From Anaerolineae bacterium (lineage in GTDB: Bacteria; Chloroflexota; Anaerolineae; 4572-78; J111): a stretch of 6,612 nt of DNA. Under the pieces are notes generated by a model that saw nothing but the letters and a program-made list of their open reading frames with translations, was not told the origin of the DNA and ran no database searches. Position 1 is the first letter of the stretch, and each line of letters begins with the position of its first letter. The stretch lies in NCBI GenBank assembly GCA_020433835.1, contig JAGRBY010000404.1, positions 1-6,612 of the forward strand. Direction: 5' to 3'. This document shows, in pieces, positions 1 to 5,550 of the stretch. The translations under genes were made by a program, and so were the position numbers.

Positions 1-131
1 TTGGGGGCGATGACGCGCACGCGCGCTCCCACTTCAAGCAGCCCATCGATTTTTCGGGCAATCTCGTGGTTCGCTCCAATCAGCACGACAAGTCGATTAT
101 CTAAGACGAGATTTAGAGGATAGGTTTTCAT
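1..131 (-). CDS. Sirohaem synthesis dehydrogenase/ferrochelatase, N-terminal part (partial)
   Basis: Reading in from the window edge, 43 codons are visible from the ATG at 129-131. The N-terminus (MKTYPLNLVLDN, then LVVLIGANHEIARK, then GLLEVGARVRVIAP) fits the Rossmann fold that opens the CysG N-terminal / SirC / Met8 family. Members oxidise precorrin-2 to sirohydrochlorin with NAD, and some also insert iron to make sirohaem, the cofactor of sulfite reductase. The start is supported by GGGAG on the minus strand at 142-146, about 10 nt before ATG. One oddity is visible: the usual glycine-rich loop (GGG followed by xVAxRK) reads G-A-N-H-E-I-A-R-K, so two of three glycines are replaced. The gene lies 102 bp downstream of cysH on the same strand, which fits a shared role in sulfate assimilation. 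Only the start is present, so a fused methyltransferase domain, as in full CysG, cannot be excluded. Confidence 0.8.
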   Translation of the reverse strand, partial: MKTYPLNLVLDNRLVVLIGANHEIARKIDGLLEVGARVRVIAP

Positions 132-233: not shown

Positions 234-986
234 CTATGCCAAATGAATACCGCACTCCGTTTTGGTTCTACCCTTCCAGCGACCCGACCGCTCATCAGCC
301 ACATTTGTGGTGGGCAGGGTGCAGTGGGTGCAGCCGATGCTGGCAAACCCTTGATCGTGAAGGGGGTTGTAAGGGATTTTGTGCTTGAGGATGTAACTCC
401 ACACCTGGCCGCGAGTCCAATTGGCCAGCGGGTTAAGTTTGACCAAATCATACTTCTTATCCCAGGTTACCAGCGGCATATTGGCTCGTGTTGGGGCTTG
501 ATCACGGCGTAAACCGGTGATCCAGGCATCGAGTTCGTGGAGGGCATCGCCTAACGGCACAACCTTGCGGAGATGGCAGCAGTGATCGGGCGATGATTCC
601 CATAGGGCAGGGCCGTAAGTTTTTGCTTGCGCTTGCGGCGTTAAATGCGAGCTGCGAACATCTAACTGAATGGGATAACGCTGTTGAACCTGTTCCATCA
701 AGGCACAGGTTTCATCAAAGAGAAAGTTGGTATCGATAGTAATAATGCGGATACCGGGTGATAGACGGGCCAGATGGTCTAAAATAACCATTCCGGACGG
801 ACCAAAGCTGGTTACTTGGGTAACTTTATCTCCAAAGGTGCAGAGTGACCACTCTAAGAAATCATCAAGCGAACGTGTTTCGAAATGATCGTTGAGTTGA
901 GCGAAGTCATACTGAACCGTGAACGGGGATGCGGTGCAAAAATTGATTTCTTCCTGGTGCATTACTAATTCCTCTGTTGCAATCAT
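234..986 (-). CDS. cysH: Assimilatory adenylyl-sulfate (APS) reductase, CysH family
   Basis: This 250-residue protein reduces activated sulfate to sulfite in the cytoplasm, using thioredoxin or glutaredoxin as electron donor. Residues 59-65 (TSFGPSG) form the PP-loop-like nucleotide site and residues 156-168 hold the conserved ITGLRRDQAPTRA segment. The adjacent pair Cys136-Cys137 and the Cys219-x-x-Cys222 pair are the four ligands of the 4Fe-4S cluster. In this family they mark use of APS rather than PAPS. The C-terminal ECGIHL carries the catalytic Cys245. Length is normal for the family. Two starts are possible: ATG at 984-986 with AAGGGG 8 nt upstream, or ATG at 960-962 (residue 9) with GAGG 8 nt upstream; I keep the longer form. 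The gene ends in TAG, with the sirohaem-synthesis gene following. The upstream leader holds a cysteine-codon ORF, a terminator and a palindromic site, suggesting control by cysteine supply. Confidence 0.93.
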   Translation of the reverse strand: MIATEELVMHQEEINFCTASPFTVQYDFAQLNDHFETRSLDDFLEWSLCTFGDKVTQVTSFGPSGMVILDHLARLSPGIRIITIDTNFLFDETCALMEQVQQRYPIQLDVRSSHLTPQAQAKTYGPALWESSPDHCCHLRKVVPLGDALHELDAWITGLRRDQAPTRANMPLVTWDKKYDLVKLNPLANWTRGQVWSYILKHKIPYNPLHDQGFASIGCTHCTLPTTNVADERSGRWKGRTKTECGIHLA

Positions 987-1036
987 TTTTTATACCCCTT
1001 TAATCAAGAATTTTTGGCAACAAAAAACCTACACAC

Positions 1037-1050
1037 GGTCAACGTTGACC
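1037..1050. promoter_or_regulatory. 14-bp perfect palindrome upstream of cysH
   Basis: GGTCAACGTTGACC is perfectly self-complementary and ends 50 bp before the longer cysH start. Aligned with the palindrome at 198-211 it shares GT, the central AACGTT, and AC at matching positions (10 of 14 bases), so the two are plausible sites for one dimeric regulator. As RNA it could form only a short 5-bp hairpin, and the following U run begins about 8 nt after the stem, so it is a poor terminator. Confidence 0.5.
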
Positions 1051-1242
1051 AGCGCTCTGTCGTTTATAAAGCGACTGTCTACCATAACTGTAAGTCGCTA
1101 CCCATTTGCCTTTATTCTTATAGAATATTCGGCATGTTTGGTGGCTAACCACAGTAAAACTGCTTAAAAACGCGAGACTACCAATCTCTACCGGTGTAGG
1201 TATTCTGATTCAGTTGATTAACTTCGTTGTATTACAACTGTT

Positions 1243-1329
1243 TCAGCGAGACGGATAGACTCGCCTGGTACAGTTACAATATAAGAGTGGTGCGTCGGAC
1301 GCACCTTTTAACTGCGTTTCTGAATTCAT
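1243..1329 (-). CDS. Possible second short leader ORF with Cys-Asn-Cys
   Basis: A 28-codon ORF begins with ATG (1327-1329) and stops with TGA (1243-1245). A GAGAG stretch 4-5 nt before ATG could serve as a weak ribosome binding site. The peptide contains YCNCTRR, that is, codons TGT AAC TGT. An RNA stem, GGTGCGT/ACGCACC (1289-1305), lies within it, so translation would melt this stem. Shortly after the Cys codons a GCGAG segment can pair either with CTCGC at the stop codon or with the later TCTCGC (about 1171-1176) just before a U5 run. This suggests a second cysteine-sensing leader peptide, but a 28-codon ORF can arise by chance and nothing else supports expression. Confidence 0.25.
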   Translation of the reverse strand: MNSETQLKGASDAPLLYCNCTRRVYPSR

Positions 1330-1361
1330 GTTTCTCTCAACTTTGATGCTTAATAGGTAAC

Positions 1362-1396
1362 AAAAAAGCCTGCCGGTATTGCTCTCGGCAGGCTTT
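1362..1396 (-). terminator. Strong intrinsic terminator, candidate attenuator
   Basis: On the minus strand AAAGCCTGCCG (1396 to 1386) pairs perfectly with CGGCAGGCTTT (1375 to 1365): an 11-bp, GC-rich stem with a 10-nt loop, running into six U residues (1367 to 1362). In the other direction the U run is broken (TTTGTGT), so it acts mainly on minus-strand transcripts. It lies 24 nt beyond the stop codon of the polycysteine ORF and 376 nt before cysH. It could be the attenuator of the cysH operon, the end of a small RNA of about 165 nt, or the distal terminator of the ATPase gene. Confidence 0.85.
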
Positions 1397-1398
1397 GT

Positions 1399-1418
1399 GT
1401 ACGTTTTAGAAAATGTAC
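1399..1418 (-). promoter_or_regulatory. Hairpin between leader ORF and terminator
   Basis: GTACATTTT (1418 to 1410) can pair with AAAACGTAC (1407 to 1399), with one G-U pair. It begins 2 nt after the leader stop codon and ends 2 nt before the terminator stem. Its distal arm can instead pair with GTACGTT (1431 to 1425) inside the ORF, so two exclusive structures are possible and a ribosome near the stop codon would influence the choice. Confidence 0.45.
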
Positions 1419-1420
1419 TA

Positions 1421-1525
1421 CTACAACGTACCCCACCAAGACGCAGGCAGACAGAGACAACAACACATACAGCTGCAGTTGGCGAGATTTATTTTGTTAG
1501 ACTTGGTGACCAATAAGTTTAACAT
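1421..1525 (-). CDS. Polycysteine leader peptide, putative, leaderless
   Basis: A 34-codon ORF runs from ATG (1523-1525) to TAG (1421-1423). The peptide reads MLNLLVTKSNKINLA, then NCSCMCCCLCLP, then ASWWGTL. Six cysteines fall within nine residues (17, 19, 21, 22, 23, 25), far beyond chance expectation. There is no ribosome binding site, but the predicted transcription start lies within about one base of the ATG, as for a leaderless mRNA. A hairpin and a strong terminator follow directly, and cysH lies downstream on the same strand. Leader peptides rich in the end-product amino acid typify transcription attenuation, and leaderless polycysteine ORFs acting as cysteine-responsive attenuators are known from mycobacteria. 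The inferred role is sensing of Cys-tRNA charging, with the peptide itself having no function. Alternatives are a metal-binding or ribosomally made small peptide, or chance. Confidence 0.55.
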   Translation of the reverse strand: MLNLLVTKSNKINLANCSCMCCCLCLPASWWGTL

Positions 1526-1532
1526 AGCTGCT

Positions 1533-1560
1533 AGTATATAAAATATTGTAGATAGTGCAA
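1533..1560 (-). promoter_or_regulatory. Sigma-70-like promoter of the polycysteine leader
   Basis: On the minus strand TTGCAC (1560 to 1555) and TATACT (1538 to 1533) are separated by 16 bp, a good match to the -35 and -10 consensus. Start of transcription would fall near 1526, immediately before the ATG of the polycysteine ORF. Confidence 0.55.
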
Positions 1561-1672
1561 ATTTTGGTTTGGTTTTTTGGATAGATTACAGGCTATTATA
1601 GCCGGTTGCGCTCAAGCTTGGCTCAATATTTTCTCAAACTACGATCTGCGTAAGTTAATTAATTCTCATTCC

Positions 1673-4402
1673 TTAGGAAACGACGGCAAACCAACGACGG
1701 ATCAGCTCAACTTGGAAGCGGTAGCCGCCATTGACCGGCTCGATCAACTCGCGGCGGGTGAGCAGACGCAGGCTGCGGTCGAGATTCTCGCAGCACACCT
1801 GCTCGGCCAGCCGCCCCCGTTCGACGAGCGCATTTTCACCAAGCGTGGCCATAAACCGAAGAATTGTCAGCCCATCTTTGTCGATCTGGTTGCGCTCGAT
1901 ATCGGCAAAAAAGAAACTGCCCCGATCGAGGGCCTCCACGACTACTTGCTCAACATCATCTAACCGCGCCAGGCGTCGAACGGACGGATCTTGCTCGTTT
2001 TTTAAGGCCACAATTTCATCACACAGAAGCTGCACCAGGAAAGGGTGGCCCCGGGTGAGGCTAAAAACGCGGCGGCAGGCATCCTCCTCGTAGCGCAGCG
2101 GAAAATCATTGACCGGACGCTCGATCAGGTGGATAGCTTCCTGTTCCGTCAAGTAGCTGATATGTACGACCTGCACGTTGATGAGGTAACTGGCCCACCG
2201 TTGAAATTCGTCTTGGGTTTGAGAACTGGTCAGCAAAACCTTAAATTTGGGACGATGCTGGATCAGGTGGCGCAGCATGCTCAGTAAATCGCGACCGTCG
2301 AGCCGTCCCCGGTCGATGGCGTTTTCCAACGCTTCAAACTCATCCAGGGTAACCAGAGCGGTGTGATCGCCTAGCGCTACTTCCACCTCATCTAGCCATT
2401 CGTCAAAATAGGTAAAAGGATCAACTTGTAACTGCTGACGGGATAATGGGGGGAAAATTAAATCGCGCTGGCTCTGGGCAGAGTTGCTCATGCCACGGGC
2501 GATGTTGTAAAAGAAGCCGGCATAGTCATTTGCCTGCGAGGCCGGCCCTTGCAAATCGACAAATAAAGGCACAATGGTTGTGGGCAGCAGCCGGCTGAGG
2601 TTATTGAGCAGCGATGTTTTGCCCATACGCCGTTGACCATACAGCAGCAGCGGCGGACGACGGCGATCGAGCAGCAGCTTTTCAATGCGGGTGCTGATGT
2701 TGGTACGGCCAACAAAAATCTCTTGTCTTTCAGTGAGGGGAATACCGATAACGTAGGGCGAGTCGATTTCCTGACGTGATTCTACCGTAGCTGTAAGCTG
2801 GCGAACGTGGGCGGCGATGATTTGCCGCCAACGAGCAGCAATCGAGCGAAAACGGAGCGCGTAGGGTTCGCTGCTGCGAATCAGTTCACGCAGCAAACCA
2901 TCGAGCCGATCCTCGATTGTACTGAGGGCCAAGCGTTGGTTATAGGCGCTGGCTTGCTCTAACGCCACGCCGACATCTTGGCTGATGCGGCTAAAACTGC
3001 GAAGCAGCGCACTGGCCGGCCCCGATAACTCACCGGCGGCTAAATAGGTGTGGGCTAAACTAATCGCTTCGACATCGGCGCACGCCTCCAGGCCGCGAGC
3101 ATCCAGTTCTATCTGGGTGGCCTGGGCAGCCCAACGCTGGCGGTTTGTCGCCAAATAATTCATTGCCGCCCAGCCTTCATAGGGATTACGATCCATGACA
3201 AGCAACATGTGGTCATCAAGACCGACCATATGGAGCGGCTGGTGCTCATCCCAAAAAGCAGAATGCCAACGCAAGCTACTTACGCCTTGGCCCTTGCTAC
3301 GCACATCGCGGCGATAGAGTAAAAAGTTCCACCCCAGAAAAATGGGATACAGGACAATCGGTCCCCAGATAGGGAAACTTAGACCGGCCACCAGGCTGGA
3401 TAAATGCGGCAAAACCAGTGAGCCAACATCGATATTGTAATCAACCCCGGCTCGTATAAGCCAGCCGGTACCGCAGCCCAAAGCACCAGCAGTGACTCCG
3501 CTCCATGGGCCGGCTAGATTTTGAACCATGATAAAGGTGGGGAGTATGAGCGCGTAGTACAGAATAATGTAGGCAACGATTTCATTATTGATAGCAAAAG
3601 CCAACCTTAGGGCCAGCATTACCAAGATGCCAACCGCAAAACCAATGCGGATACCGCGCCACCAGCCTACAACCCCCACAAGGATTAAGCCAACTAAGGC
3701 ACAAATAAGCGAGGGCCAAACCTGCCATTTGATAAGATAGCCCCCCCCAACCAGCATTATACCGGTCAGTATAATACCAATTGACACCGCAATAATTTGG
3801 CGAATCTGCGAAAATTCTTTATGGTGAACCAGGCTGCCGGAAACTCGACCTACCAGACCACCGGCCAAACCGATGAGCAGACCGAAACCAAGACTGAACA
3901 TCATCGCTTCTGGAGGGGCAACATCTCCCCCCTGCCCCAGTAACTCTTCTATTCGCTGAGCCAGGCCGGCGGTAACCAATCCACTGCCCAACCCAATAGC
4001 AATCACCGAAGCAGCGCTAACCGCTGTGCCTATCGTCACGCTGCTTACCAGGCCGGCCATCGCCCCCACCATAAAACTGACCACCATGCCAGAGACGATG
4101 TAGGTGGGTGTCGCTCCAAAAGCGACGCTGATAAGGCCGGTAAGTACACTGGCGATGATGGGCAAAATACCGTAGCACATTATCAATAATCGCTGCAAAC
4201 TGCGGTTGCGCCATTGGTGAACGGTAAGTTCAGTAAGCGTAAAGTTGGGCTGAAGTGTGGGATCGATCCGCCGGATGTGGTGCCGCCAGGCAGTGGGGTG
4301 AAAGTAGAGCCAAAACACAAGCTGAAAACTGCCTAACACGATGTTGGGATAGTTTTGGGGAGCATCGGTATAGATTTGTTCCAGTTTTTCAGCAGTTGCC
4401 AC
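1673..4402 (-). CDS. Polytopic membrane protein fused to STAND/AAA-type ATPase
   Basis: This 909-residue protein has two halves. Residues about 72-362 contain roughly nine or ten hydrophobic helices rich in Gly, Ala, Val and Ile. Residues about 380-545 are soluble and probably helical. Residues about 560-909 form a P-loop ATPase of the AAA_16/ATPase_2, STAND-like kind: FVGR at 563-566, Walker A GQRRMGKTS at 589-597, Walker B LVTLDE at 683-688, a sensor-like KVLLTSS at 721-727, the STAND-type GHPF at 785-788, then a winged-helix-like end (about 840-905). Such ATPases act as signal-driven switches, so a membrane-coupled sensor or scaffold is likely, but no ligand or partner is evident. Translation starts at GTG (4400-4402), with a perfect AGGAGG 5 nt upstream. 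A run of eight G residues interrupts the membrane region (codons 219-221). A MITE-like inverted repeat lies just upstream of the ribosome binding site. No clear terminator follows directly. Confidence 0.92.
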   Translation of the reverse strand: MATAEKLEQIYTDAPQNYPNIVLGSFQLVFWLYFHPTAWRHHIRRIDPTLQPNFTLTELTVHQWRNRSLQRLLIMCYGILPIIASVLTGLISVAFGATPTYIVSGMVVSFMVGAMAGLVSSVTIGTAVSAASVIAIGLGSGLVTAGLAQRIEELLGQGGDVAPPEAMMFSLGFGLLIGLAGGLVGRVSGSLVHHKEFSQIRQIIAVSIGIILTGIMLVGGGYLIKWQVWPSLICALVGLILVGVVGWWRGIRIGFAVGILVMLALRLAFAINNEIVAYIILYYALILPTFIMVQNLAGPWSGVTAGALGCGTGWLIRAGVDYNIDVGSLVLPHLSSLVAGLSFPIWGPIVLYPIFLGWNFLLYRRDVRSKGQGVSSLRWHSAFWDEHQPLHMVGLDDHMLLVMDRNPYEGWAAMNYLATNRQRWAAQATQIELDARGLEACADVEAISLAHTYLAAGELSGPASALLRSFSRISQDVGVALEQASAYNQRLALSTIEDRLDGLLRELIRSSEPYALRFRSIAARWRQIIAAHVRQLTATVESRQEIDSPYVIGIPLTERQEIFVGRTNISTRIEKLLLDRRRPPLLLYGQRRMGKTSLLNNLSRLLPTTIVPLFVDLQGPASQANDYAGFFYNIARGMSNSAQSQRDLIFPPLSRQQLQVDPFTYFDEWLDEVEVALGDHTALVTLDEFEALENAIDRGRLDGRDLLSMLRHLIQHRPKFKVLLTSSQTQDEFQRWASYLINVQVVHISYLTEQEAIHLIERPVNDFPLRYEEDACRRVFSLTRGHPFLVQLLCDEIVALKNEQDPSVRRLARLDDVEQVVVEALDRGSFFFADIERNQIDKDGLTILRFMATLGENALVERGRLAEQVCCENLDRSLRLLTRRELIEPVNGGYRFQVELIRRWFAVVS

Positions 4403-4773: not shown

Positions 4774-5550
4774 ATGACCGACAATAGATCATCCGACTCA
4801 AGTATTCAGTCTGTTCAGCGAGCCGCAGCTATTCTGCGCTGTTTTACCCGTGTGGAAAATGAGCTGGGTGTTATGGCTATCAGCGAGCAACTGAAATTGC
4901 ATAAAAGTACGGTTTCTCGGCTACTGTCGACCCTCAAACAAGAAGGCTTTGTTGAGCAAAATCCGGAAACCGGCAAGTATCGGCTGGGGCTATCGCTGGT
5001 AACATTGGCGGGGGTTGTACTGGATAGTATCGATCTGCGGCAAGTGGCTCATCCATACTTACATGCATTGGCCCATGAGACGCAAGAAACGGTCAACATT
5101 GTTGTGCTAGACGGCAATGAATGTGTCAATGTTGATGGCGTGCCCAGCCCCAGACCGATTCAGTATATTGGTCGGATAGGCCGCCGAACACCTACCTATT
5201 GTACGGCGGCGGGGAAGGTGCTGCTGGCTTACCTATCCCCTAAAGAGCGCTATACCGTTTTACCCAAAATTTTGGTCCGATTTACCGATCACACCATTAT
5301 TGAGCATCAGCAGTTACTTGAGTCGTTGGATCATGTACGCGAACAGCGCTATGCCGTTGCCGTCGAGGAGCACCAAATGGGCCTTAGCGCGATTGCTGTG
5401 CCGATTTGTGATCATACTCGGGAAATTTGTGCGGCAATCTCTATATCCGGCCCGTCGTACCGGGTTGGGGTTGATAAAATCCACGAATTCTTGCCACCCT
5501 TGCAGGAAGCAGCACTTGGTATTTCAACACAGCTGGGCTGTGTTTTATAG
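4774..5550 (+). CDS. IclR-family transcriptional regulator
   Basis: This 258-residue protein has the two-domain IclR layout at normal length. Residues about 11-75 form the winged helix-turn-helix, with the recognition region around LHKSTVSRLLSTLKQEGFV (42-60) and the wing ending in KYRLG (68-72). Residues about 85-255 form the effector-binding domain, with the family motifs CTAAGKVLLAYL (143-154), RYAVAVEEHQMGLSAIAVP (192-210) and AISISGPS (221-228). IclR proteins bind small carbon metabolites and usually repress or activate catabolic genes, often including their own. The ligand cannot be told from the sequence, and no catabolic enzyme lies next to it here. The ATG at 4774 has no clear Shine-Dalgarno sequence, which is unusual given the strong promoter. 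The likely co-transcribed neighbour is the unknown 210-residue gene 49 bp downstream. Confidence 0.95.
   Translation: MTDNRSSDSSIQSVQRAAAILRCFTRVENELGVMAISEQLKLHKSTVSRLLSTLKQEGFVEQNPETGKYRLGLSLVTLAGVVLDSIDLRQVAHPYLHALAHETQETVNIVVLDGNECVNVDGVPSPRPIQYIGRIGRRTPTYCTAAGKVLLAYLSPKERYTVLPKILVRFTDHTIIEHQQLLESLDHVREQRYAVAVEEHQMGLSAIAVPICDHTREICAAISISGPSYRVGVDKIHEFLPPLQEAALGISTQLGCVL

Follow-up and report, generated by a model that had tools for sequence, protein, structure and literature searches.

The window, by which we mean the whole stretch of 6,612 nucleotides that was analysed, carries on its minus strand a cysH gene and the start of a siroheme synthase gene, and upstream of cysH a leader region with two short open reading frames and two terminator-like elements. 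The nearest relative found is locus L001 from an Anaerolineae MAG, whose CysH is 94% identical, and this fits the Chloroflexota-like host proposed in the preliminary description of this DNA. In the direction of reading the features are:

1533..1560, minus strand: promoter-like pair TTGCAC-16-TATACT (TTGCAC 1560-1555, TATACT 1538-1533), read from the sequence; the -10 element and the spacing are kept in L001
1421..1525, minus strand: leader ORF 1, a translated frame of 34 codons, probably leaderless; conserved in L001
1451..1477, minus strand: run of cysteine codons (C S C M C C C L C) within stem 1:2, the proposed sensing site
1432..1486, minus strand: stem 1:2 around the cysteine codons, 1486-1479 (CUCGCCAA) with 1439-1432 (UUGGUGGGG side), in MFE and centroid structures
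1429..1450, minus strand: region 2, the putative antiterminator strand (CUGCC...UUGGUGGGGUA), able to pair with the terminator in the duplex test (p=0.028) and the switch test
1399..1431, minus strand: small hairpin GUACGUU...AACGUAC across the stop codon of ORF 1, from folding
1362..1396, minus strand: intrinsic terminator 1 with an 11-bp stem (1396-1365), a loop of 10 and a U tract to 1362, from folding; conserved in L001
1243..1329, minus strand: ORF 2, 28 codons after GAGAGAAAC, peptide MNSETQLKGASDAPLLYCNCTRRVYPSR up to the stop; its CNC is kept in L001 and L084
1022..1204, minus strand: second RNA domain, terminator-like and adjoining cysH, with a long-range stem UACCUACACCGGU...ACCGUGUGUAGG and U6 (z -4.2, -4.0)
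234..986, minus strand: cysH of the phosphoadenylyl-sulfate-reductase type (Pfam PF01507; NF002537 and TIGR00434 over cut-off)
1..131, minus strand: start of a siroheme synthase N-terminal-domain gene that extends beyond the window; the complete L001 copy matches TIGR01470

In L001 the operon consists of cysH, the gene for the siroheme synthase N-terminal domain and a sulfite/nitrite-reductase-like gene that scores below every curated cut-off. Of the sulfate reduction and sirohaem genes named in the earlier proposal, the window contains cysH and the siroheme synthase N-terminal domain; cysN and cysD are absent from it. Judged by position, the controlled genes would be cysH and the siroheme synthase domain here, and in relatives also sulfite reductase and cysteine-synthase-like genes. 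Upstream of the leader an AAA-ATPase gene is oriented towards it and stops at 1673. The product of this gene (1673-4402, minus strand) has 909 amino acids with an AAA ATPase domain and, by eye, a hydrophobic N-terminal half; a gene for an IclR-type regulator (4774-5550) lies beside it. Between 4442 and 4524 there is an inverted repeat with perfect arms of 15 nt separated by 53 nt, with more likeness outside by eye, which is possibly a small mobile element.

The peptide of leader ORF 1 (1525-1421) is MLNLLVTKSNKINLANCSCMCCCLCLPASWWGTL up to the stop, with cysteine at codons 17, 19, 21, 22, 23 and 25, that is, six within nine codons. All parts of the anatomy first described, the promoter-like pair, the ATG, the 34-codon ORF, the hairpin and the 11-bp terminator, could be found on the minus strand, and the intrinsic terminator is located between leader ORF 1 and the first structural gene. 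In 3000 dinucleotide shuffles of the region 987-1672 (both strands) only one ORF with at least six cysteines in nine codons occurred. The promoter scan reports the promoter pair in another register (TTTGCA-17-TATACT), and matches to the consensus alone are at chance level, with 2 found in 900-1800 against 1.9 expected. Nevertheless, the promoter candidate is supported, because the -10 element and its distance of 7 nt to the ATG (1525, minus strand) are kept in L001. Three of the six U of the terminator 1 tract lie within the stem; this terminator is absent from one listing of the terminator scan, which has a loop limit of 8 compared with the loop of 10 found here.

L001 retains the -10 element, the 7-nt distance to the ATG, both arms of stem 1:2 and the terminator, and its leader peptide is MLNLSVTKYNKITLANSCMCMCCCLCLPAPWWGTSL up to the stop; the alignment with ORF 1 of the window has one gap of 3 nt inside the ORF and the stop one codon later. 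The more distant loci L083 and L084 (CysH 62-63% identical) have different leaders with the same logic, and in L083 and L239 the terminator is close to the first gene, without a long gap. In L239 and L240 cysH comes after a gene for an assimilatory sulfite reductase (over the NF010029 cut-off), and the ORFs rich in cysteine codons (poly-Cys ORFs) precede the sulfite reductase gene and not cysH; thus, the leader tracks the start of the operon. Of the six rows that form the CysH clade of the window, five have a poly-Cys ORF before the operon; the stretch scanned for the sixth, L082, showed none.

For the whole class, 396 genomes were searched for cysH, of which 122 matched at E<=1e-30, with 131 places listed. 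One hundred of these places were retrieved (the remaining 31 are among the weaker ones) and two, L121 and L178, were unplaceable, leaving 98 class loci, four of them with less than 700 nt upstream. With the criterion of at least four cysteines in nine codons on the coding strand in the 700 nt preceding the cysH match, a poly-Cys ORF is found in 37 of the 98 loci, compared with 1 for the reverse strand and 2.4 from shuffles. A few of the 37, for example L113, may be due to chance; the other 61 loci have no such ORF within this distance. A poly-Cys ORF followed by a terminator within 60 nt occurs in 18/98 loci, but not at all on the reverse strand or in one shuffle of each locus. Two separate poly-Cys ORFs are present in 12 class loci, and L073, which lies outside the set of 98, has two with a terminator after each. 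The conservation of the cysteine run, on which the earlier reading had been made to depend, therefore holds in L001, and run and terminator recur across the class. In all likelihood the switch of the window belongs to a system that is widespread in this class and in places arranged in tandem.

Outside this set the yield was low. A phylum-wide draw of 28 new loci (L181-L208, classes not stated; places without a locus not included) gave one doubtful match more than 1000 nt upstream (L191), and a first wider search (L002-L080 minus L073, some of them Chloroflexota; three of 78 loci dropped for having less than 200 nt upstream) gave one forward and one reverse match in 75 loci. A single origin of the leader was considered and rejected, as the label requires five changes on the CysH tree of 73 rows, a count that is unsure because L085 and L097, with leaders before the preceding gene, and the doubtful L113 were labelled as without.

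A leaderless start of ORF 1 is likely in the window, judged from the 7 nt between -10 element and ATG. Among 20 first leaders, with start codons chosen by hand, the best -10 element is 6-7 nt from the start codon in seven (the window, L001, L073, L148, L151, L155 and L119) and 21-46 nt in the other 13; for L102 the chosen start is not in frame, an in-frame TTG being located 2 nt upstream, and this leaves the seven unaffected. As only these seven have the short distance, the poly-Cys switch is not tied to leaderless initiation, and the leaderless character first proposed is not a general property.

The leader of the window folds into stem 1:2 around the cysteine codons, the small hairpin and the terminator (z -2.7 for the leader, -3.5 for the part 3′ of the cysteine run). 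Pairing of region 2 with the terminator exceeds that of shuffled sequences at p=0.028 in the window and p=0.084 in L001, and is below 0.05 in 14 of 28 leader–terminator units. For the switch test a ribosome was modelled whose reach extends 12 nt beyond the start of the A-site codon. In the window the probability of the terminator is then 0.07-0.08 with the ribosome on the first three cysteine codons and 0.92-0.96 further on, reaching 0.96 at the stop codon (shuffled-spacer control, p=0.03), so that the predicted switch rests on the first three cysteine codons. With a reach of 15 nt the low-terminator state is confined to the first two. Counting against the model, this state is also predicted on several codons preceding the cysteine run. 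Without a ribosome, the probability of the terminator in the window is 0.94 when folding begins at the ORF start and 0.72 when it begins 60 nt upstream of the run, the latter fold having been computed for 26 units.

In 22 units, from which near-copies had been removed by hand, the mean equilibrium switch is 0.41 compared with 0.04 for shuffled spacers and 12 units are at p<=0.05, whereby pooled p values are too small because the units are related and were hand-picked for having leader and terminator. The equilibrium switch is absent in L001, L083, L084, L127a and others. When only the 5′ arm of the terminator has been made, it is already engaged to 0.70 with a stalled ribosome, 0.25 with the ribosome at the stop and 0.47 in shuffled sequences; in this test 14 of the same 22 units are at p<=0.05, including L083 and L084 and excluding the window and L001. 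For the window the engagement with the ribosome on the last cysteine codon equals that of the shuffled sequences (0.47 vs 0.46). Because of these equilibrium and 5′-arm results, we regard the predicted competing structure as supported for the group and as plausible, not proven, for the window.

Poly-Cys ORFs are also found at other cysteine genes. In 19 genomes selected for having a poly-Cys leader at cysH, cysteine-synthase-like genes (TIGR01136 search) have an upstream poly-Cys ORF in 15, for example MMSHRSCCCCCQKTGASSA up to the stop; 3 of these 15 cases pass the TIGR01136 family cut-off and 12 score below. Four of the genes were rechecked, giving one cysK over its cut-off and three that are nearest to cysM and below the cysM cut-off. 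Over 27 of the 30 cysteine-synthase-like loci (three short ones were omitted) there are 15 forward and 1 reverse poly-Cys ORFs within 500 nt. For ATP-sulfurylase, 19 loci were returned and none of 18 has a poly-Cys ORF in the 1500 nt before the domain match. At seven cysteine-synthase-like loci (L217, L219, L220, L221, L223, L225 and L227) a long-range complementary pair was seen by eye after the leader, for example GTCAACTGG...AGTTGACTTTTTT, which to the eye resembles the second element of the window.

The recurrence of cysteine run and terminator and the cysteine runs before cysteine-synthase-like genes support the original reading of the locus as a cysteine attenuator. We consider it highly probable, on computational grounds, that the element is a ribosome-mediated transcription attenuator that senses the supply of cysteinyl-tRNA. 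Transcription would start at or next to the ATG and a ribosome would translate the 34-codon leader. With enough cysteine the ribosome would pass the cysteine codons and reach the stop, region 2 would be masked or left behind, and the hairpin 1396-1365 could form and stop the RNA polymerase. When cysteine is short, the ribosome would stall on the first cysteine codons and block stem 1:2, region 2 could pair with the terminator, and the polymerase would continue towards cysH and the following genes. Such a switch very probably lets the cell make the enzymes of sulfate reduction only when cysteine is short. A riboswitch or T-box was also considered and rejected, as there is no Rfam match at gathering score; the region 950-1700 has five weak matches to leader or sRNA families at E<=5, two of them leaders, Phe_leader (25.9 bits, gathering 55) and Thr_leader (17.2 bits).

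The distance of 376 nt from terminator 1 to cysH had been named as the weak point of the attenuator reading. This gap contains ORF 2 and the second, terminator-like RNA domain, neither of which has an Rfam match. The segment TGTAACTGT of ORF 2 is invariant in L001 and L084. Judged by eye, ORF 2 stands where the tandem relatives have their second poly-Cys leader, and its peptide tail is similar. A closing stem comparable to that of the second domain is present in the MFE structure of L084 and in none of L001. As a second classical cysteine attenuator ORF 2 was rejected, since a ribosome walk at equilibrium gives it no support: with the ribosome on the ORF 2 cysteine codons versus the stop, the closing stem has 0.82-0.86 vs 0.90 in the window, 0.75-0.82 vs 0.88 in L001 and 0.78-0.83 vs 0.84 in L084, and in the window and L001 it drops low only with the ribosome on earlier ORF 2 codons. 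A perfect 14-bp palindrome, GGTCAACGTTGACC, at 1037-1050 is identical in L001 and not in L084; it may belong to the RNA or serve as an operator.

The gap could mean that the first attenuator is real but minor, with cysH being expressed mainly from a promoter or under a second switch inside these 376 nt. Its strong folding, the conserved ORF 2, the U-run and the palindrome would suit this explanation; however, a scan of 900-1800 with one consensus type gave no promoter-like site on the minus strand of the gap, and L083 and L239 manage without such a gap, so that we hold it to be unlikely. A wider picture can be drawn in which cysteine attenuators, frequently arranged as two in series, form a regulon that is a main cysteine control in a large part of the Anaerolineae. 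In the lineage of the window the second stage would have become a CNC leader peptide coupled to a long-range RNA terminator, through which a second signal gates cysH, giving two sensors in series on one operon. We offer this as a tentative speculation and hold it to be rather unlikely.

Candidate cys leader peptides have been described by Seliverstov et al. (2005, PMC1262725) for Mycobacterium as well as for several further Actinobacteria; in the part of that paper available to us, the Mycobacterium ORFs lack conserved terminator hairpins and the mode of action is left open, with Rho being suggested. Accordingly, the mode suggested for Actinobacteria could apply here too, the poly-Cys ORF acting through translation coupling or through Rho and the terminator being secondary. 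In agreement with this, the scan of the class loci shows no terminator within 60 nt for 19 of the 37 with a poly-Cys ORF, among them leaders with serine and cysteine runs. Nevertheless, the window and 18/98 class loci have an intrinsic terminator directly after the ORF and the competing pairings exceed those of shuffles on average, which makes this mode quite improbable as the principal one. The serine and cysteine leaders form a distinct type: upstream of cysH in L101, L106, L111, L120, L123, L124 and L133-L137 a serine run is followed by a cysteine run, as in SSSSSCLCTTSSCCCSCCCS up to the stop, and no simple terminator was found.

It is very unlikely that the ORF product is a functional cysteine-rich peptide, binding metal or taking part in redox reactions, rather than a codon sensor: clusters like CMCCCLC might bind metal, but by eye the peptides vary between groups outside the cysteine run while run and terminator recur, and CCCCC, seen at cysteine-synthase-like genes, has little but cysteine in common with CMCCCLC, seen at cysH. 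That a chance ORF merely lies beside the terminator of the AAA-ATPase gene, which points towards the leader and stops at 1673, is scarcely credible in view of the single ORF in 3000 shuffles and the recurrence beside other upstream genes.

If the attenuator reading is right, leader-peptide attenuation for cysteine extends to Chloroflexota, with intrinsic terminators and tandem units, and poly-Cys leaders would offer an easy way of recognising cysteine control from the sequences of uncultured bacteria. Leaderless polycysteine sORFs were reportedly described in mycobacteria by Canestrari and colleagues in 2020, a work also found in the reference list of PMC13236596, as far as that list was available. 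According to the accessible parts of PMC9031893 and PMC9094748, the mycobacterial polycysteine sORFs are leaderless, have contiguous cysteine codons, lie upstream of other genes and respond to cysteine in M. smegmatis. Among open-licence papers, in titles and the beginnings of abstracts, we found no report of cysteine attenuators in Chloroflexota; in the text available, the main part of PMC2965389 has no word beginning with Chloroflex, and PMC11005417, on sulfur assimilation in a cultured Chloroflexota bacterium, none beginning with "leader".

As far as these sources show, the window resembles the mycobacterial sORFs in its short ORF with cysteine codons upstream of other genes and, likely, in its leaderless start. 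It differs in having an intrinsic terminator after the ORF, in the tandem units of its group and in belonging to Chloroflexota, and 13 of the 20 first leaders are not leaderless by their -10 distance. The actinobacterial cys leaders, which in the part of PMC1262725 available precede cys operons or cbs, likewise have short ORFs with runs of cysteine codons, whereas terminators are found here in 18/98 class loci and conserved in L001. On the attenuator reading, poly-Cys leaders would be present in two phyla that are far apart, leaderless or not and with or without terminators, so that separate origins become testable. Classical leader-peptide attenuators are those of the trp, his, thr and phe operons. 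The element described here differs from them in its cysteine signal, its Chloroflexota host, its lack of an Rfam match at gathering score and its tandem copies, and is like them in the end-product codons of the leader ORF and in the possible stems 1:2, 2:3 and 3:4.
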